60,060 bases of DNA from contig JAKIHM010000014.1 of the NCBI GenBank assembly GCA_021608145.1, positions 1 through 60,060 on the forward strand, read 5' to 3'. Under the pieces are notes generated by a model, which saw only the letters and a list, made by a program, of their open reading frames with translations, did not search any database and was not told the origin of the DNA. Each line of letters begins with the position of its first letter. The stretch's first letter is position 1. Source of the stretch: Thermovorax subterraneus. GTDB lineage: Bacteria; Bacillota; Thermosediminibacteria; Thermosediminibacterales; Thermosediminibacteraceae. Made by a program: the position numbers and the translations under genes. Positions 4,166-59,888 of the stretch are shown in pieces.

Positions 4166-5641
4166 TCAGCCCGTCCCGCTTAACATGAAGGACAGCCACT
4201 CTGTGGGCCCCCAGCCCCGAAAAATCTTGTCCTCTCTTATGGCCCGCTTTCGGGCGGCCTTATAGAGACCGAAAAGTTTGCCCCAGAGCCCGAAGGGCTT
4301 CCATCCTTCCTTAGGCGAAAGCCTCCTCAAGAGTTCCCGGGGCATCCTCTCCGCAAATCCTAATGCCCGGCGGGCTATCACAAGGGCCGCCGCCTGGTGA
4401 GCGGACAGCCCATAGGCTTCCGAATACTTGAAGTACCCGATAAGGGAAGTGAATTTGGCAGATACGGTAAAGACTGCGATACCCCTCTTCCTCAAAGCCA
4501 CGACAATCCGGTTGAAAAGGAGTTTCTTGCAGAAGTTGTGAGTTATCCGATTGAAGAGGCGGTTGGTGTCGTGGTCCTGGGCAAAGGACAGCTCTTCCAG
4601 GGCTACCTGCTTTATACCCAGCAATTCCAGCCATTCGGCTATGTCTTTAGCCAGGTTCCCGGCTATCCACTCCCGTTTTTCATGGGAAACGTAGACCAGT
4701 TCGGGACACCAGAAACAGCGTGAGATATGAAAATTGCCGTCCGGCAGGACCAAGGTTACGGCCACCACATCGGGGTTTAAGTCTATTCCTGCCATGGGCA
4801 AGTCTTTGTTTACAGGCACGTCATCGCCCAGGGGAAAGGAAATAAGGCAATCAAACCTTCCGTTCTTGCGGACTACCCTTACCGTATAGGCACCAGCTCT
4901 CAAAAGGTGCTGCAGGAATATGCTCCGGTAACGAACAGGTATTTCCAGGGGCACCGTAACCCAGTCTTCTTCTTTCCTCCGGCGGCCGTCTTTATTTTCC
5001 GGCTCCGGCGGTATGTAGACGTTGAGGCGGAAGGAACCGGTAACCTCGTCGAAGACCACTTCAGTGTTGGCATTGCCGTACTGGCCTTTCAGTCCCTTCT
5101 GGTTGGCCTGGCCTACGGAGTAAAAGGAGTTTGACCGTAATTCCCGCCACTCTTCTTTGGACAGTTTCCCTTCCTGGAGCAGGAGCAGGTTTCTTTTGCC
5201 CCCGAATACCGCTGGCGGGACTTCATCCCTCTCCAGGAAACCCTTCCAGTAGGCCAGTTTGCCGCGAAGCTTGTCTAGCCTTGCTAATATGCCCCGTCGA
5301 CGAAGTTTATCCTTAGTGCGTTCCAGCTTTTCCTCGGACTTCTCTATTTTTGCCTCCAGGTCGGCGACATGCATTTTGACCTGCTCTTTCTGGCTCTCAA
5401 TTGTGGCTTTAGCGTCCTCGACGGCCCACTGGCACCAGCGTGCGTTGGGGAAGAATTTATCGTAGAGGTCTTTTACTATTTCTCCGGGCCTTTCCCCCCG
5501 CCTCAGGGCCTGGTAGGTGGTGCGCTTGGCCGCCTGGAAACGTCGCATGAAGGAGACCAGCCTTTCCCGTGCGTCCTGATCGGGGTATATTCTGCCGGGT
5601 ATGGTCATCATGTCGGTAGGCTTATTCACCTTTTGCCGCAT
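4166..5641 (-). CDS. tnpB: TnpB-like RNA-guided nuclease homologue, zinc-ribbon-less variant
   Basis: A 491-residue OrfB/TnpB relative. A charged, probably coiled-coil region (about 75-135) precedes the RuvC-like core. The first acidic residue is D287 in GIDLNP and the second is E349 in ALEELSF. The usual C-terminal zinc ribbon (two CxxC pairs) and the DxNAA motif are absent. The corresponding stretch reads GLSAHQAAALVIARRALGF (411-429), a pattern I recall from a TnpB-related subfamily. It may be catalytically altered or inactive. Its start overlaps the recombinase gene by 20 bp, so the two are translationally coupled. Confidence 0.85.
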   Translation of the reverse strand: MRQKVNKPTDMMTIPGRIYPDQDARERLVSFMRRFQAAKRTTYQALRRGERPGEIVKDLYDKFFPNARWCQWAVEDAKATIESQKEQVKMHVADLEAKIEKSEEKLERTKDKLRRRGILARLDKLRGKLAYWKGFLERDEVPPAVFGGKRNLLLLQEGKLSKEEWRELRSNSFYSVGQANQKGLKGQYGNANTEVVFDEVTGSFRLNVYIPPEPENKDGRRRKEEDWVTVPLEIPVRYRSIFLQHLLRAGAYTVRVVRKNGRFDCLISFPLGDDVPVNKDLPMAGIDLNPDVVAVTLVLPDGNFHISRCFWCPELVYVSHEKREWIAGNLAKDIAEWLELLGIKQVALEELSFAQDHDTNRLFNRITHNFCKKLLFNRIVVALRKRGIAVFTVSAKFTSLIGYFKYSEAYGLSAHQAAALVIARRALGFAERMPRELLRRLSPKEGWKPFGLWGKLFGLYKAARKRAIREDKIFRGWGPTEWLSFMLSGTG

Positions 5642-6263
5642 CCACCATGGCCTCCCTTACTTTTTTGCGGAACTCCTTGCTTCGGGAACCGTAGAGCTTG
5701 GCGGAAAACACGGTAAGTATAGATAGCATGTCCTGTACCAGCTCTTCCTGAAGGGACCTCGGCTCTTCTCCGTTAACAACCTCTATCCTTACGCCGAAAG
5801 CGTTAAAGAAGCGTTCGATATAGGTGTAGCCGAAACGGGCCAAGCGGTCTTTAAACTCGATTACCACCAGATCCATTTTCCCTTCCCGGGCCATCCTGAA
5901 AAGCCTTGCGAGTCCTTTGCGCTTTTCGTTCAACCCCGAACCCTGCTCTGCGATTACCGCCACTATCTCGTAGCCCCTGGAGCCGCAGTACTCTTCCAGC
6001 CGTTGCCTCTGGCGCTCCAGGTTCCCCGCTCCGGCCTGTTTGGCCGATGAAACGCGTGCGTAGACGACGGCTCTCCTGCCGGAAGGGACGTTCTCCCCCA
6101 GTAGGCGCAGGATCTCGCTTCTGGGAAACCGCCTCTGGCCGGAAGGAGTCCGTATACAGTGGATTTTCCCCTCCTTCTCCCAGCGGCGCAGGGTTATCGG
6201 GTGGACGCCCAGTATCTCTGCAGCTTTGCGTAAAGGGTAATGTTCCTCAAGTTCAGGTTTCAT
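5622..6263 (-). CDS. tnpA: IS607 TnpA, MerR-headed serine recombinase
   Basis: A 213-residue recombinase. Residues 9-56 form a MerR-type winged helix (LRKAAEILGVHPITLRRWEKEGKI). A resolvase/invertase catalytic domain follows. The probable nucleophile is S72 in YARVSSAKQ, with supporting motifs ERQRQRLEEYC and EFKDRLARFGY. It catalyses strand exchange during excision and insertion of the element. The protein appears full length for IS607 TnpA. Transcription probably starts outside the element, from the captured promoter at 6386-6413. Confidence 0.9.
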   Translation of the reverse strand: MKPELEEHYPLRKAAEILGVHPITLRRWEKEGKIHCIRTPSGQRRFPRSEILRLLGENVPSGRRAVVYARVSSAKQAGAGNLERQRQRLEEYCGSRGYEIVAVIAEQGSGLNEKRKGLARLFRMAREGKMDLVVIEFKDRLARFGYTYIERFFNAFGVRIEVVNGEEPRSLQEELVQDMLSILTVFSAKLYGSRSKEFRKKVREAMVDAAKGE

Positions 6264-9805: not shown

Positions 9806-10252
9806 TCAAGCCCATATTTTTTTCGCAACATCTCCAGAGTCAGACTGCTGCATAGTTTTGGAATTCAAGCACTTTACAAATACCTTCCTCTTCCTTGGTC
9901 CGTCGAATTCGCAGAAAAGCACGCCCTGCCAGGTGCCCAAAACGAGCCTTCCGTCTTCAATGGCCAGCAACACCGAGCTTCCCACGAGCGACGCCTTTAT
10001 GTGAGCATCGGAGTTTCCCTCGACGTGCCTGTAGTTACCCCTTTGCGGGATAAGCCTTTCCAGAGTGTTTATTATATCGGTCTTCACATCGTCATCGGCG
10101 TTTTCGTTAATTGTCACCCCTGCTGTGGTATGAGGTACGAAAATGAAGCATAGTCCGTCCTTCACCCCAGATTCCGATACGGCCTTTTTTACCTCGTCGG
10201 TTATATCCACCATCTGATTCCTAGCAGTTGTCTTCACTTCGATTTCTATCAT
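9806..10252 (-). CDS. yjbQ: YjbQ-family protein (UPF0047)
   Basis: A 148-residue protein matching YjbQ: FVPHTTAGVTINENADDDV, the internal NYRHVEGNSDAHIKASLVGSS and LGTWQGVLFCEFDGPRKR are the family's conserved blocks. Some members have weak thiamin-phosphate synthase activity, but the physiological role is unsettled. The last 20 or so residues (SKTMQQSDSGDVAKKIWA) look unlike the family and may come from readthrough at the adjacent IS3 remnant. The ATG has GGAGGG very close upstream. A structured leader RNA precedes the gene. Confidence 0.85.
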   Translation of the reverse strand: MIEIEVKTTARNQMVDITDEVKKAVSESGVKDGLCFIFVPHTTAGVTINENADDDVKTDIINTLERLIPQRGNYRHVEGNSDAHIKASLVGSSVLLAIEDGRLVLGTWQGVLFCEFDGPRKRKVFVKCLNSKTMQQSDSGDVAKKIWA

Positions 10253-10284
10253 AACCCTCCTTAATCATCTAAGCCGTATAAAAC

Positions 10285-10362
10285 TTTACAGCCCAGACGG
10301 CTGGGGTATTTATAGTCCGCCTTTCAGGTTGCCTCAGCCCCAGCAGGCGGTTTTTGAGGCAA
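10285..10362 (-). promoter_or_regulatory. Structured leader RNA of yjbQ (copy of a two-copy unknown motif)
   Basis: On the minus strand, stem TTGCCTCA/TGAGGCAA (10362-10355 with 10336-10329) has a loop containing CCGCC-T-GCTGGGG (10350-10338). CCGCC can pair with GGCGG (10321-10317). GCTGGGG can pair with CCCCAGC, which follows after a 10-nt spacer ACTATAAATA. CAGCC/GGCTG (10303-10299 with 10293-10289) is an alternative hairpin, though without a good T-run. The same architecture precedes ltaE at 17194-17273. Riboswitch-like control is inference. Confidence 0.6.
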
Positions 10363-17064: not shown

Positions 17065-17193
17065 AAAATCCCTCCAAACATCTTTTTGTTTGATTATACA
17101 TAAAAGATTAACTTATTGCAAGGCAAGCAGGATTTATGCGCGAGTTATAGAATTATTATTTTTGCATCGAAAATAAAAATATCCAAACAAAAT

Positions 17194-17273
17194 GAGCACC
17201 TTAATACCGCCTGCTGGGAATAGGTGTTCATTCAAATGGCGGTTTATAAATATCCCAGCCTCGGGCTGTTTTT
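17194..17273 (+). promoter_or_regulatory. Structured leader RNA of ltaE with overlapping terminator (second copy of the unknown motif)
   Basis: Stem GAGCACCT/AGGTGTTC (17194-17201 with 17222-17229) has a loop holding CCGCC-T-GCTGGGA (17207-17219). CCGCC can pair with GGCGG (17238-17242). GCTGGGA can pair with TCCCAGC (17253-17259) after the 10-nt spacer TTTATAAATA. The 3' strand of that pairing is shared with the hairpin CAGCC-TCG-GGCTG followed by TTTTT (17256-17273), an intrinsic terminator. Pseudoknot formation would prevent termination, an ON-switch layout. The ligand is unknown. Confidence 0.65.
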
Positions 17274-17299
17274 GCAGCTTGAGCAAAAGGGAAAAAGAT

Positions 17300-18343
17300 A
17301 TGGAAAAGTTCATCGATCTCAGGAGCGATACCGTAACCCTTCCCACGCAGGAGATGCGCGAGGCCATGTACCGAGCCGAAGTGGGGGATGACGTCTACGG
17401 CGAAGACCCGACGGTAAAAAGGCTGGAGGAAATGGCTGCCGAAATCACCGGGAAGGAAGCGGCCATGTTTGTAACCAGCGGCACCCAGGGCAACCAGGTA
17501 TCGATAATGACCCACACCCATCCTGGCGATGAAATTATCTTGGAAGAAAAAAGCCACATCTTCACCTACGAAGTTGGGGGCATAGGTTACCTTGCGGGGG
17601 TGCAGGCCAGGACCATACAGGGGAAAAAGGGCGTCATGGACCCCTCCGACATAGAGGCCGCCATAAGGGAGGATGACATACATTTTCCGAAAACCAGTCT
17701 GATCTGCGTGGAAAACACCCACAACAGGGCGGGCGGTACCGTGATCCCCCTCGATGTTCTGAAAAGGACCTACGAAATTGCCCAAAATCACGGCATACCG
17801 GTTCACATGGACGGGGCCAGGATCTTCAATGCCGCTACTTACCTCGGCGTCCCCGTAAAGGAAATTGCAAAATACGCCGACAGCGTGATGTTTTGCCTTT
17901 CTAAAGGCCTCTGTGCCCCTGTAGGTTCCATCGTAGCTGGCAGCAGAGAATTTATAAAGAAAGCTAGAAAATTCAGGAAGATGCTGGGCGGCGGGCTGCG
18001 CCAGGCCGGGTTTCTCGCCGCCGCCGGGATAGTCGCCCTTGAAAAGATGGCGGGAAGGCTGAAAGAAGATCACGAAAACGCAATGCTCCTTGCCGAAGGC
18101 TTAAATGCCATTCCGGGCATTTTTATCGACATGGAAACAGTCCAGACCAATATCGTAATCTGCGACATATCCGGTCTTAAAATAAACGCCAGTGAGTTCG
18201 CAAAAAGGCTCTTAAAAAAGGGAATAAAAATTAACGGGGGTTCGGGATATTTAGTCCGGTTTGTCACTCATTACGGTATAGAAAAAGATGATATTTTAAG
18301 GACCATAAAGGCCGTAAAGGAAGTAGCCGAGGAAATTTTATAA
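17300..18343 (+). CDS. ltaE: Low-specificity L-threonine aldolase
   Basis: A PLP enzyme of about 347 residues that cleaves threonine or allo-threonine to glycine and acetaldehyde. [20 protein letters not shown] and [11 protein letters not shown] are the canonical N-terminus, ENTHNRAGG and [11 protein letters not shown] are active-site blocks, and the PLP lysine is in [13 protein letters not shown] start at the ATG at 17300. An upstream in-frame ATG at 17192 would place the leader hairpins inside the protein. A PP-loop gene follows after 14 bp, so they are probably co-transcribed. Confidence 0.92.
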
Positions 18344-31406: not shown

Positions 31407-32570
31407 TTATTTCAAACCATCCATAGCCTTTCTAAGTATTTTTATAAGGTCGTCTACAGTAGACTTCCTTGGATTTACCGCCACATTTCCGCTGGTATAG
31501 GCTTCTTCTGCAATCGGTTTTAAATCTTCTTCTTTTACACCAAAATCCTTTAAACCCTCCACTATGCCTATGTCTCTCATCAATTTTTTAATAGCCTCTA
31601 CAGCCTTCATTCCCGCTTCCATCCTAGAAAGACCTGTAATATTTTCCTCAAAAATTACAGCTATTTCAGTAAATTTTTCAGGCACAGCCATAACATTAAA
31701 TTCCATTACATGCGGTAAAACAATGGCATTCGCCAGCCCGTGCGGTATGTTGAAATGAGCACCTAGCGGAGAAGCAAGTGCATGGGCAAGACCTAACCTT
31801 GTAACGTTAAAAGCCAAAGCTGCTATGGTGCTCGCCATAATCATATCTTCTCTGGCATCAAGATCATCGCCGTTTGCCACCGCTTTTCTCAAGCTACGGG
31901 CTATTAACTTCATCGAATGTAATGCCAGTGCTTCTGAGATTGGCTGTGTCGCTTTGCAAACGTAAGACTCGAGCGCATGAGTTAATGCATCCATTCCAGT
32001 AATAGCAGTAACTTTAGGTGGGAGTGACTTAGTGAGAAGGGGATCAACTATTGCAACTGTGGGCATCAAGTACCAACTTCCTACACCAGTTTTAAATTTT
32101 GTCTTTTTATCAGTTAATACTGACCAGTAAGTAGCTTCACTACCAGTACCCGCCGTAGTAGGTATTGCGATGATAGGCAGCGCAGGTCTCTTAATTTTTC
32201 CTATCCCGATATAATCGAAAATCTTCCCTTCATTTGTAACCATAGCAGCTACAGCTTTTGCAGAATCCATAGAACTGCCGCCACCGACTCCTATGGTTAT
32301 TTCGCAACCTGACTTTTTGGCGATCTCAGTTGCCCTTTCAATCATATCAATACCCGGATCGGATTCTACTTCATCAAACAGAACGTATTCTATATTTTCT
32401 TTTTTTAATGATTCTATAATACCATTTAATAGGCCTGCGTTAACAACACCTTTGTCTGTAACTATAAAAGCTTTTTTTACATTTAACTCCTTTACCTTTT
32501 CTCCTACCTTTTCCGAAGCGCCTCTCCCCATAATAATTTCAGTAGGCATTTTGTATACCTTTATGTCCAT
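31407..32570 (-). CDS. Iron-containing alcohol dehydrogenase
   Basis: About 387 residues of the Fe-ADH family. GGGSSMDSAKAVA binds NAD(P). Metal ligands are expected in the aspartate region before MPTVAIVDPLL and in MDALTHALESYV and HFNIPHGLANAIVLPHV. It probably reduces a short aldehyde formed by aldol cleavage (glycolaldehyde, lactaldehyde or glyceraldehyde) or oxidises the alcohol. I start at ATG 32570 with AGGGGG nine bases upstream, not at the TTG two codons earlier. Confidence 0.88.
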   Translation of the reverse strand: MDIKVYKMPTEIIMGRGASEKVGEKVKELNVKKAFIVTDKGVVNAGLLNGIIESLKKENIEYVLFDEVESDPGIDMIERATEIAKKSGCEITIGVGGGSSMDSAKAVAAMVTNEGKIFDYIGIGKIKRPALPIIAIPTTAGTGSEATYWSVLTDKKTKFKTGVGSWYLMPTVAIVDPLLTKSLPPKVTAITGMDALTHALESYVCKATQPISEALALHSMKLIARSLRKAVANGDDLDAREDMIMASTIAALAFNVTRLGLAHALASPLGAHFNIPHGLANAIVLPHVMEFNVMAVPEKFTEIAVIFEENITGLSRMEAGMKAVEAIKKLMRDIGIVEGLKDFGVKEEDLKPIAEEAYTSGNVAVNPRKSTVDDLIKILRKAMDGLK

Positions 32571-32591: not shown

Positions 32592-34430
32592 TTATACTAA
32601 TTCTAATTCTTTGAGTTTTGACTCTCTTGGGATTCCCTCTTCACTCCACCCACGATACTCATAATAATCGCTTAGCATTTTGCCTAATGGAGGCAAATTA
32701 ACTGTAATTCCTGGACCTTCTCTCTTTAAAGTAAGGAATCGCATTGGGAGTATATCATCTTTTCTGGAAATGCCGCATTTTACATTAAACATCCTTTTTA
32801 TATTGAAAATTCTCTCTCCGGTAGTCATCAATTCTTCAAAGGAATAATCTTCCCACCCTATTACATCTTTTATCCATTCAACGACTGTGCTTATTTTTAA
32901 ACCTCCTTGCAACATAAATTTGCAAAGTTTTAATGAATCGAAAACACCCATAAGATTTTGCATCTTTGCCACAAACTCGGCTTTTCCATCAACTAAAAGT
33001 CTATCATGGGGTTTGTCGTATCCCAATTCTGGCATAGCAAATACTCTCTCAAACCCATGAGTAAATCCCGCAAGATGACATGCTCCTCGATTTGATGTAG
33101 CATATGAAAGAGCTACCCCATTATACGCTCTCGGATCATGCGCAGGAGGCTCAAGCCCCTTAACATGGAGTGCATACTCTTCAGCAAGTCCACCAATTTC
33201 TTTTGCAGCCTTTCTCACACCCTCAGCTAAAATTCTACCTATACCACGCCTTTCTGCTATCATTTTTACCAATTCAACCATTGCTTCAGCATTGCCAAAT
33301 CTTAAATCCAGTCCTCCGGTATCCTGTTTTGTTATAATTCCCTTCTCATAAAGTTCCATCGCAAAAGCTATAACTCCACCAGTTGTTATAGTATCCATTC
33401 CGTAACGGTTGCATAGTTCATTTGCATAGGCTATTGCCTCAAGTTCATCTATAAGGCATAACCCCCCTAGAGTGCCAAGGGTCTCATATTCGGGTCCGGC
33501 TCCTTCGACTCCCTTGTAAGGCCCGTTTTCAATTTTCACCACTCTTCCGCAACCTATTATGCATCCTTTACAACGGTAATTTCCAACTAGGATAGTTTCT
33601 GCCATCCTTTGGCCGGAAATTTTTTCAGCTCCTTCTGGCCAACGTCCAACTTTCCAATTACCCAAAGGGAAGTTTCCGTAACTTTCATGACCAATAACGC
33701 CGCCGCCCGTTCCAAACTTTGTCATATTAACTGTAGCTTCTTTTATTCCCGGTGCTATATTCCTGATAGATTTAATCAATCTTTCTTTGTCATATACCTC
33801 AACATTTTTTGAACCCTTAACTGTGATAGCCTTTAGATTTTTTGCTCCCATTACAGCTCCTATTCCACATCTGCCCAGAGCCCGACCGTCTTTACCATCC
33901 GTCATGATTGCAGCAAACTTTACCAAATTTTCACCAGCAGGCCCAATGCTCATAACCTCTACATCTGCCGCCAATTCCTTTTTTAATAATTCATCAGTTT
34001 CATAAGTATCTTTACCCCAGATGTGTCTTGCATCTTTTATCTCTATCTTTGAATCTTCTATATATATGTAAACCGGACTTTCAGCTTTTCCTTCTATGAT
34101 TATACCGTCATATCCTGCTCTCTTTAATTCATATCCCCATGAACCTCCGACGTCTGATTCCGCAAAAATACCCGTTAAAGGTGATTTTGTAACAGCAGCA
34201 TGCCTTCCAGAAGTAGGTATATTCGTCCCGCAAAAAGGACCTGTTAAAAAGAATATTTTGTTTTCATGCCCAAGAGGGTCTATTCCAGGATTAACTTCAT
34301 CATACATTAATTTTGCCCCAAGGCCGCTTCCACCCAAATACTTTCTCCATAATTCCTCTTTAATAGTTTCTAGAGAATAGGTTTTATTAGTCAAATTTAT
34401 TCTTATTATTTTATTCCAGTAGCCGTACAT
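32592..34430 (-). CDS. Aldehyde:ferredoxin oxidoreductase (tungsten/molybdopterin)
   Basis: About 612 residues of the AOR family, which oxidises aldehydes to acids and reduces ferredoxin, using a W- or Mo-bispterin and one Fe4S4. GYWNKIIRINLTNKTYSLE and GPFCGTNIPTSGRHAAVTKSP are family N-terminal motifs. CKGCIIGC (CxxCxxxC) with a distal Cys in SLKLCKF are the cluster ligands. EYETLGTLGGLC and HVKGLEPPAHDPRA belong to the pterin-binding part. ATG at 34430 follows GGGAGGTC. A MoaD-like gene directly precedes it. The likely substrate is the aldehyde from the aldolase step. Confidence 0.93.
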   Translation of the reverse strand: MYGYWNKIIRINLTNKTYSLETIKEELWRKYLGGSGLGAKLMYDEVNPGIDPLGHENKIFFLTGPFCGTNIPTSGRHAAVTKSPLTGIFAESDVGGSWGYELKRAGYDGIIIEGKAESPVYIYIEDSKIEIKDARHIWGKDTYETDELLKKELAADVEVMSIGPAGENLVKFAAIMTDGKDGRALGRCGIGAVMGAKNLKAITVKGSKNVEVYDKERLIKSIRNIAPGIKEATVNMTKFGTGGGVIGHESYGNFPLGNWKVGRWPEGAEKISGQRMAETILVGNYRCKGCIIGCGRVVKIENGPYKGVEGAGPEYETLGTLGGLCLIDELEAIAYANELCNRYGMDTITTGGVIAFAMELYEKGIITKQDTGGLDLRFGNAEAMVELVKMIAERRGIGRILAEGVRKAAKEIGGLAEEYALHVKGLEPPAHDPRAYNGVALSYATSNRGACHLAGFTHGFERVFAMPELGYDKPHDRLLVDGKAEFVAKMQNLMGVFDSLKLCKFMLQGGLKISTVVEWIKDVIGWEDYSFEELMTTGERIFNIKRMFNVKCGISRKDDILPMRFLTLKREGPGITVNLPPLGKMLSDYYEYRGWSEEGIPRESKLKELELV

Positions 34431-57598: not shown

Positions 57599-58396
57599 TT
57601 ATGTTAGTGTATATTTCATCCCCGCTCGTATCTTTTCTTCCGATAGATTGTAAAGCTCGTCGAAGAAGCACACCTTGAAGCTTGCAGGTCCCCGAATTTC
57701 CGGTCTACTCGCTGCTAGTTCCCCGGCTAGGCCAAAAGTAACCAGGGCCGCAACGGAAGCTTTGAAGTAATCCCTTTCAACGCCGCAGAAGCTGCCGATA
57801 ACCGACGCCAGCATGCACCCCGTGCCGGTTATCGTTCCCATCCACGGGTGGCCGTTGTCCACGAAAGCCACCCTTTCCCCATCTGTCACCACATCTCTGG
57901 CGCCGGATATCACCACGGTTGCTCCAAGGTTTTTCGCCATGTCTTTTGCAGCCGCCAAAAGATTCTCGCTGCTGCCGACAGCCTCGACCCCGCGGATCTC
58001 ACCCCCTGCACCGGCAAGCACTCCTATTTCGGCGCTGTTTCCCTTTACTACGGATACTTTGACCTCTCCCAGTATCCTTTTTGCGCTTTCGGTCCTGAGG
58101 GGCGTGGCTCCAGCCCCCACCGGGTCCAGCACCACTGGTATTCCGAACTCATTCGCCTTTTTGCCGGCTTTTATCATGGACTCCACCTGTTTAGGCGTAA
58201 GAGTTCCTATATTCAGCACGAGGCCCGACGCCGCCTTCACCATGTCCTCCACTTCTTCTAGGGCATGTGCCATAACCGGCAGGGCTCCGATTGCCAGCGT
58301 TACATTGGCGCAGTCGTTTACTGTCACGATATTGGTGATGTGATGTACTAACGGCTTTTGATTCCTTACCTTATCAAGCAAACCTTCTATCATCAA
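57599..58396 (-). CDS. thiM: Hydroxyethylthiazole kinase
   Basis: A 265-residue ribokinase-fold enzyme that phosphorylates 4-methyl-5-(2-hydroxyethyl)thiazole for thiamin salvage. [38 protein letters not shown] is the N-terminal signature, [16 protein letters not shown] and [11 protein letters not shown] are conserved, and [13 protein letters not shown] contains the catalytic Cys region. It follows thiC by about 20 bp under the same riboswitch. Confidence 0.95.
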
Positions 58397-58416: not shown

Positions 58417-59715
58417 TTAACAATTAATCTTTTCCGTACCCAGGAATTTGGCTACCACGTCCATGGCGCAGAAATTTCCGCACATGGTGCAGGTCTTGGT
58501 ATCCGAAGTGTTCCTTTTTTCCCTGTATCTCCCGGCCTTTACCGGGTCGATGGCAAGTTTAATCTGGGCCTCCCAGTCTAGGTTTTTTCGCGCTTTTGCC
58601 ATTTCGAGGTCCCATTTTCTTGCTCCAGAGACGCCTTTGACGATATCGGCGGCGTGGGCTGCTATCCTTGAAGCTATAACCCCTTCCCTCACATCTTCCA
58701 CAGTAGGAAGCCCCAGGTGTTCCGCGGGAGTTACGTAGCAAAGGAAGTCTGCACCGGCCGCCGCGGCAATTGCTCCGCCTATGGCCGCCGCTATGTGGTC
58801 GTAGCCCGCCGCCACGTCGGTAACCAGCGGCCCCAGCACGTAGAAGGGCGCACCGTGGCAGATTCTCTTTTGAAGCTTCACATTCGCCTCAATCTGGTCC
58901 ATCGGAACGTGACCCGGCCCTTCCACCATAACCTGCACCCCATGCTTTCTCGCTTCTTGCACCAGTTCACCAAGAACGATAAGCTCCTGGACCTGCGCCC
59001 TGTCGGTAGCGTCGGCAAGACATCCGGGCCGCAGGCCGTCCCCCAGGCTTAAAGTAATATCGTACTTCCGAGCTATCTCAAGAAGCTTGTCGAATTTTTC
59101 GTAGAGGGGATTTTGCCTGCCGTTTTTCAGCATCCAGCCTGTCAGGAACGCACCGCCCCTGCTCACTATGTCCGTAATCCTTCCTTCCCTGCGAAGCCTT
59201 TCCACGGCCTCCAGCGTGACGCCGCAGTGGACGGTCATGAAATCCACACCCTGTTCGGCTTGTTCTTCGATGACTTCAAAAAGTTCTTCTTCTGTAAACT
59301 CGACGACGCTGCCCCGTTCTTTCCTGGCCCGCACTCCAACTTCGTATATAGGGACAGTCCCCAGCGGCACGTGGATTTCTGCAAGTATGATCTTCCGAAT
59401 TGCTGCGATATCCCCACCGGTGGAAAGGTCCATGATGGCATCGGCACCTGCCTCAATTGCCGCTTTTGCCTTTAAGAGCTCTTCTTCAAGGTCAGCATAA
59501 GCTTCAGAAGTTCCGATATTGGCGTTGACCTTGGTCCTCAGGCCTCTTCCTATGCCGCAGGGTTTCAGGCCCCTGTGGTTCTTGTTGCACGGGATAACCG
59601 CAGTTCCATCAGCAATTGCTCTTCTTACCTCTTCGGCATCCACTCGTTCTCGTTCGGCCACCTCTTTCATCTCATCGGTAATTATGCCCTGCCGGGCGGC
59701 TTCCAACTGCGTCAT
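58417..59715 (-). CDS. thiC: Phosphomethylpyrimidine (HMP-P) synthase
   Basis: A radical-SAM enzyme of about 432 residues that converts AIR to [24 protein letters not shown] is the short-form N-terminus. [37 protein letters not shown] and [16 protein letters not shown] are conserved, and the C-terminal cluster motif is CTMCGNFC. I start at ATG 59715, after GGGGGAG, rather than an in-frame ATG at 59739, which falls in the riboswitch terminator region. Confidence 0.96.
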
Positions 59716-59740
59716 AAAAAACTCCCCCTTTAAAAACAAA

Positions 59741-59870
59741 AAATCGTACCCAGGGGTACGAACTCAAAAAGCAACCGACTACCCTCCCTACGCTGGCATT
59801 ACCCAAACAGGTTCAAGGGTTCGGGAAAAATTCCCGTCTCAGCCGCTTTTCGCAGCACCCCCGGTAGTCT
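59741..59870 (-). promoter_or_regulatory. TPP riboswitch with intrinsic terminator
   Basis: On the minus strand the aptamer (59870-59775) carries GGGGGTGC, GCGGCTGAGACGGG, ACCCTTGAACCTG and GGTAATGCCAGCGTAGGGA, the THI-box consensus. P1 is formed by AGACTACC with GGTAGTC. After it, CGTACCC/GGGTACG (59760-59745) followed by ATTTTTTG is a terminator. TPP should repress thiC-thiM by premature termination. Confidence 0.95.
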
Positions 59871-59888
59871 ATATTAAGTTTTGCTAAA

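Follow-up and report, generated by a model that had tools for sequence, protein, structure and literature searches.

The leader of ltaE in the window, that is, in the whole 60,060-nucleotide stretch of Thermovorax subterraneus DNA analyzed here, contains a genuine structured RNA that lies outside Rfam. Probably it stems from the right end of an IS607 TnpB transposon, whose (omega/re)RNA scaffold remained in place time and again after the rest was lost and now serves as an mRNA leader acting in cis. At the level of sequence, comparison across genomes demonstrates an origin in the IS607 TnpB right end, insertion at Shine-Dalgarno sequences, loss of tnpB and a fold that is retained where the leaders precede orthologous genes. 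The transposon origin is well supported, and we infer a role in cis in initiation or mRNA stability. The name ltaE follows the initial annotation and what we take the sequence to encode. The parts of this leader and of a second one upstream of yjbQ are:

17191–17201, plus strand: P1 5’ strand of the ltaE leader, core GAGCACCT at 17194–17201 (sequence read)
17207–17211, plus strand: PK1 5’ strand CCGCC, ltaE leader (sequence; partner co-changes in other copies)
17213–17219, plus strand: PK2 5’ strand GCTGGGA, ltaE leader (sequence; replaced elsewhere with matching partners)
17222–17232, plus strand: P1 3’ strand AGGTGTTCATT, ltaE leader, core AGGTGTTC at 17222–17229 (sequence and covariation)
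17238–17242, plus strand: PK1 3’ strand GGCGG, ltaE leader (sequence and pairing analysis)
17243–17252, plus strand: A/T-rich linker TTTATAAATA, ltaE leader (sequence; AAAT invariant in alignment A1)
17253–17259, plus strand: PK2 3’ strand TCCCAGC, ltaE leader (sequence and pairing analysis)
17260–17283, plus strand: P4 hairpin CTCGGGCTGT..GCAGCTTGAG, ltaE leader, with the T-run of the initial annotation in its loop (sequence, covariation, folding energy)
17300–18343, plus strand: coding region of ltaE, threonine aldolase (open reading frame; ATG at 17300)
10266–10362, minus strand: yjbQ leader, second copy in the window (pattern search; model R1 99.7 bits, E 3.5e-25)
10362–10355/10336–10329, minus strand: P1 of the yjbQ leader (sequence)
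10350–10346/10321–10317, minus strand: PK1 of the yjbQ leader (sequence)
10344–10338/10306–10300, minus strand: PK2 of the yjbQ leader (sequence)
10299–10287/10278–10266, minus strand: P4 of the yjbQ leader (sequence)
10255–10262, minus strand: Shine-Dalgarno sequence AAGGAGGG immediately 3’ of the yjbQ-leader P4 (sequence; yjbQ ATG at 10252)

The initial annotation had described a stem, two further pairings and a 10-nt spacer upstream of ltaE, and reading the sequence located all of these segments, spacer included, where it had placed them. The stem is indeed present at 17194–17201/17222–17229 but had been drawn too short, as P1 can be extended to 11 bp (AATGAGCACCT/AGGTGTTCATT). The segment had been ended at 17273, which falls inside P4; the element extends to 17283, 16 nt upstream of the ltaE ATG (17300). 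The second copy with the same layout was found upstream of yjbQ at 10266–10362 on the minus strand. The pattern GCTGGGR..GGCGG..YCCCAGC occurs twice in the window versus 0 times in 100 shuffles, and a stricter pattern gave 15 matches in the 2.45-Mb genome versus 0 in the reversed control. The count of two copies therefore holds for the window, as determined by pattern search, but not for the genome with its at least 15 strict copies.

The element consists of four helices: P1, the pseudoknot helices PK1 and PK2, and the 3’ hairpin P4. From 5’ to 3’ the order is P1 5’ strand, an AAUA-type loop, PK1 5’ strand (CCGCC), one base, PK2 5’ strand (GCUGGG plus one nucleotide), P1 3’ strand, an A-rich joint, PK1 3’ strand (GGCGG), an AUAAAUA-type linker, PK2 3’ strand (CCCAGC), P4 and the start codon; P1, PK1 and PK2 are mutually crossing in an ABCABC topology. 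All four helices are supported by compensatory changes. Among 35 distinct sequences changes on both sides were observed in 8 of 8 P1 pairs and 7 of 10 P4 pairs, and the covariation score of 0.293 compares with 0.129 in shuffles, none of 500 reaching 0.293, and with values of 0.12 or less when partners were slid. PK2 is swapped wholesale across clades (GCUGGG/CCCAGC, GCCGGG/CCCGGC, GCAGAC/GUCUGC, ACAGGG/CCCUGU, GUUGGG/CCCAAC), while PK1 co-changes across copies as UCGCC/GGCGA, GCGCC/GGCGC and CCGCU/AGCGG. Alignment A2, built with the covariance model, misplaces PK2 in G418, and pairing of PK2 was redone on ungapped sequence: PK2 cells were paired in 98% versus a shuffle maximum of 90% (2000 shuffles, partners picked within a 4-nt slide), PK1 cells in 100% versus a maximum of 97.7% (2000 shuffles). 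The compensatory change proposed earlier for the seventh PK2 pair is confirmed as G-C in yjbQ and A-U in ltaE, but this position is unpaired in 15 of the 35 sequences; the remaining six pairs are solid. The initial annotation had named an Rfam hit to a known class, copies lacking compensatory changes, or a lack of further copies in related genomes, as grounds against its proposal; no such hit was obtained, the compensatory changes are present and many copies were found.

In agreement with the earlier statement that no known class fits, no Rfam 15 family matched the element, whether gathering scores or E values up to 10 were applied, and its relatives likewise had no match at gathering scores. 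Identity with RAGATH-18 was rejected, as the Rfam model matches neither the element nor its relatives, and no Rfam match to a group I or group II intron or an IStron was obtained in 13 loci around copies. Known riboswitches were seen elsewhere: a TPP riboswitch (74.4 bits) at 59767–59872 of the window (minus strand), upstream of thiC-like (58417–59739) and thiM-like (57599–58396) genes, and a c-di-AMP riboswitch (105 bits; L006 2391–2565) about 800 nt downstream of a G000 copy.

The transposon right end lies directly upstream in 7 of the 15 copies of this genome. Six of these follow a TnpB reading frame; at the seventh (L011) the contig breaks off within the transposon tail, 87 nt upstream. 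The RNA is found about 50 nt behind the TnpB frame in this genome, in Thermoanaerobacter, in Caldanaerobacter and in other genera, and P4 of the ltaE leader is the counterpart of the right-end hairpin in the transposon copies. TnpB was assigned by NCBIfam models (TIGR01766, 65 bits, cut-off 32; TIGR01765, 87–88 bits, cut-off 47). The linked proteins are 480–517 aa long, belong to the TIGR01765 branch and show an incomplete Pfam TNB/zinc-ribbon match; a PDB sequence search with TnpB gave no match. A complete element in G056 encodes TnpA with a Resolvase domain (88.9 bits) and a MerR-type helix-turn-helix, followed by TnpB and then the RNA, which is the IS607 arrangement. A Pfam scan of the G056 TnpB gave no family at E 0.001. 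The genes flanking this element are presumably pyrD and pyrF.

At the left ends the element is preceded by GGAGG in five of six cases and by GGCGG in one, and the right ends of linked copies close with ACCAGG. GGAGG is as expected, since published IS607 TnpBs recognize the TAMs AGGAG or GAGGG (PMC11061315) and IS607 elements cross over at a GG dinucleotide (PMC10711439). Insertion right after a Shine-Dalgarno GGAGG thus places the RNA before the start codon, with the right end as the new leader. With regard to membership among IS607 TnpB right-end RNAs, a position behind tnpB with a serine recombinase TnpA applies to the linked copies only, the ltaE and yjbQ copies of the window having no adjacent tnpB; a G-rich TAM with GG junctions and a conserved pseudoknot were both found.

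Two further loci were noticed while mapping. A second IS607-type pair is located at 4166–6263 of the window (minus strand), with a serine recombinase-like TnpA carrying a helix-turn-helix (5622–6263) and a TnpB-like protein of 491 aa (4166–5641) that matches TIGR01765 and TIGR01766 weakly. Model R1 gave no match behind this pair; the 200 nt past the stop of the TnpB-like gene are rich in GC and contain inverted repeats, which may represent a right-end RNA of another kind. At L013 (G000:C33, about position 79000) a TnpB copy lies directly before a frame (VHLHVGDGP...) that looks like isoaspartyl dipeptidase reduced to its C-terminal two thirds. As no N-terminal part was found upstream, the insertion apparently either disrupted the gene or came with a rearrangement.

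The remaining copies of this genome, including both window copies, have no tnpB, and some of them retain a decaying transposon tail. Together the copies form a series from an intact tail via a partial tail (L006, L060, L072, L005, L076) to the core only. At selD, for instance, part of the tail survives upstream of the leader in Fervidicola (G003, L076), while the copy of the window genome (L012) has none. Leaders at orthologous genes were found for ltaE in 5 genomes, AMMECR/MEMO in 8, yjbQ in G000, G004 and G007, a GH2 gene in 7 Thermoanaerobacter genomes, and htpX in 5 and hsp20 in 4 Aquificales genomes, the names of these genes being our presumed assignments. Mean identity within such sets is 80–95% for the core, 27–72% for the 80 nt upstream (random 28%) and 70–91% for the coding region, core identity being at or above the level of the coding region. 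For AMMECR/MEMO the core reaches 0.80 versus 0.36 for the upstream flank, for yjbQ 0.85 versus 0.35 (random 0.28). Among the ltaE leaders P1 occurs as GAGCACCU/AGGUGUUC, GAGCACCU/AGGUGCUC, GGAGCGCCU/GGGCGCUC and GAGCGCUU/GGGCGCUC, pairing being kept despite the changes. Near-identical repeats are present within G000, G418 and G431; with many such copies per genome, part of the conservation in G418 and G431 reflects recent copying.

Model R1 detected copies in 21 of 398 genomes of the phylum, thermophilic Clostridia among the hosts, and in 62 of 81 Aquificales genomes, with a maximum of 35 copies (G431). Copies are also present in Thermodesulfobacteriaceae, Desulfofervidaceae and 3 of 7 genomes of a small phylum, and those named hosts that the model confirms are, as far as known, thermophiles. 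Pattern matches in Streptomyces and other GC-rich genomes were dismissed as chance, since they gave no score with the model. A draft genome elsewhere in the phylum (G042; L041, L051, L059, L065, L105) has strict copies with one common core near that of the window yjbQ copy, mostly at contig ends; either the element was horizontally transferred or bins were mixed. In an Aquificaceae genome (L371, G412:C61) two copies at 31901–31993 and 32625–32722 lie 0.6 kb apart before two paralogous small genes, one of transposon type (PK1 GCGCC/GGCGC, end ATCAGG) and one of long-resident type (CCGCC/GGCGG).

Of 192 distinct copies 185 (96%) are located 5–120 nt upstream of the start of an ORF of at least 60 aa, versus 29% of random sites. 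The genes behind these leaders presumably include rpoA, fusA, infC, rplU, rpsM, acpP, hfq, ftsH, mreB, grpE, hsp20, rho, ilvC, glyA and metE. Compared with other ORFs, and with crude start calls, Shine-Dalgarno sequences of leader genes are weaker in Thermosediminibacteraceae and stronger in Aquificales. The idea that the leader replaces the Shine-Dalgarno sequence was dropped because of these opposite signs in the two clades, and we make no such claim. Nine copy-bearing genomes with 1–23 copies each had no TIGR01766 match (G006, G008, G409, G411, G414, G415, G418, G425, G455), a result of one HMM on genomes some of which are drafts; G006 and G425 are single contigs. Judged by this one HMM and these partly draft genomes, a resident TnpB of this kind cannot be what maintains the RNA there. 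In G418 the core is kept, the upstream sequence is degraded, and PK2 varies together with its partner among copies. Two G418 copies (L360, L365) are reduced to CCGCU-U-GCUGGG-UUA-AGCGG-AAUAUAAAUA-UCCCAGC, a bare H-type pseudoknot lacking P1 and P4 directly upstream of cutA-like and acpP genes.

The explanation we favor starts from an IS607-type transposon whose TnpA is a serine recombinase and whose TnpB, from the TIGR01765 branch, is an RNA-guided nuclease. As the sequences show, this transposon lands directly after a Shine-Dalgarno sequence (GGAGG), whereby its right end (P1, PK1, PK2, P4 and the terminal ACCAGG) becomes the 5’ leader of the downstream gene. They also show that tnpA and tnpB were lost repeatedly, while the end of 80–100 nt was retained with compensatory changes at orthologous genes. 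The retained copy most likely acts in cis, the knotted leader and hairpin keeping the initiation region accessible or stabilizing the mRNA, and may stand in for the leader displaced by the insertion. The ltaE and yjbQ copies would be two old cases without tnpB.

The direction of events could also be reversed: an IS607 transposon might have captured an old independent class of mRNA leaders to form its right end, which would spare the downstream gene from silencing when the transposon inserts into a Shine-Dalgarno sequence. Stand-alone copies are spread more widely than the transposon, occurring in 62 of 81 Aquificales genomes and in TnpB-free genomes with 18–23 copies; this and the minimal pseudoknots of L360 and L365 would fit such a capture. 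We nevertheless consider it unlikely, as several stand-alone leaders carry a decaying transposon tail, the G418 copies have a common degraded upstream sequence and an ACCAGG end, and copies group with the transposon type of their own genome. Alternatively the stand-alone copies could serve as guide RNAs in trans, with a TnpB from elsewhere binding the leader and the first codons of the downstream gene acting as guide. TnpB reRNAs do use the sequence just beyond the right end as guide (PMC10711439), the copies retain the right-end architecture, and TnpB coexists with stand-alone copies in G000, G003 and G412. This function is rather improbable given the nine copy-bearing genomes without detectable TnpB and the loss of the ACCAGG junction in old leaders that keep P1, PK1, PK2 and P4; by reasoning, moreover, the sole match of such a guide would be the locus it comes from, and the target there would have no adjacent TAM unless a new Shine-Dalgarno sequence arose. 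That the copies are functionless transposon debris, their structure visible only through recent insertion, is suggested by the near-identical repeats in G000, G418 and G431, but is highly doubtful in view of the fold kept in orthologous leaders across species, where the upstream flank is at or near random level, and of the compensatory P1 changes among ltaE leaders.

A metabolite riboswitch controlling termination or translation, the kind of reading given by the initial annotation, is the least likely among the rivals and in our view very improbable. preQ1 and SAM-II riboswitches have an H-type pseudoknot with an A-rich loop near the start codon, and the compact double pseudoknot with its A-rich linker before the start codon resembles such aptamers in outline; the missing Rfam assignment would also suit a new class. 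Unlike them, however, the element has a well-supported transposon origin, no Rfam match and downstream genes without a common pathway (rpoA, fusA, ribosomal proteins, hfq, acpP, ftsH, rho, radA, selD, ltaE, yjbQ and others). The specific layout put forward, a switch in which aptamer folding blocks termination, is not supported, given this lack of a common metabolite, a terminator weaker than P4, and the TnpB linkage that it leaves unexplained. A CAGCC/GGCTG hairpin with T-run was matched by a consensus terminator scan, but it reaches only −6.1 kcal/mol and competes with the longer P4 (CUCGGGCUGU/GCAGCUUGAG), which in the ltaE leader folds at −13.9 kcal/mol and draws the T-run into its loop. 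P4, and not CAGCC/GGCTG, is the conserved hairpin, and the GGCTG strand is missing in most other copies; attenuation is therefore unlikely as a general mechanism. Some copies have no P4, with the start codon only about 20 nt past the end of PK2.

Right-end RNAs of TnpB elements are already known. The proposed transposon-derived leader resembles the IS607 TnpB reRNA of the RAGATH-18 systems (ISFba1 and relatives, PMC11061315) in being a non-coding RNA with pseudoknots behind an IS607 TnpB, in the G-rich TAM AGGAG/GAGGG that equals a Shine-Dalgarno sequence, and in copies away from TnpB, about a third of RAGATH-18 copies having no neighboring TnpB (PMC11061315). It differs in being unmatched by the RAGATH-18 model, in the linked TnpB (480–517 aa, TIGR01765 branch) and in copies that genomes free of TnpB have conserved as leaders of many genes. 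With the reRNAs of ISXfa1 (IS607, PMC10711439) and ISDra2 it shares a right-end position, stem-loops and a pseudoknot that is essential in those systems, and with ISXfa1 also insertion at a GG dinucleotide (PMC10711439). In those reRNAs an apical loop pairs with guide-flanking nucleotides, whereas here P4 separates the double pseudoknot from the junction, and pairwise crossing is seen among P1, PK1 and PK2. TldRs, TnpB-derived RNA-guided repressors (mentioned in PMC13418256), likewise represent a part of a TnpB system exapted for host gene control; they keep protein and guide, whereas here the protein is lost and the RNA scaffold stays in cis. In the open-access literature we found no account of this RNA, nor of any right-end RNA that genomes without TnpB conserve as the leader of many genes.

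In its widest form the proposal is that thermophilic bacteria possess a widespread class of double-pseudoknot leaders, spread by TnpB transposons that target Shine-Dalgarno sequences and kept by the host, which would act in cis, without the protein nuclease, to determine how dozens of housekeeping mRNAs are translated or how stable they are; we see the chances of this as evenly balanced. The RNA family, absent from Rfam 15, can be modelled from the present copies. If the proposal is true, it would be a case of RNA-first exaptation from TnpB systems, in which the scaffold RNA outlives the nuclease and, in thermophiles that are phylogenetically far apart, comes to serve core genes (rpoA, fusA, hfq, acpP and those for ribosomal proteins) as their 5’ leader. 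As a consequence of the Shine-Dalgarno-like TAM each insertion would exchange the leader of a gene, and a transposon guide-RNA scaffold would have been turned into a general element of gene expression.
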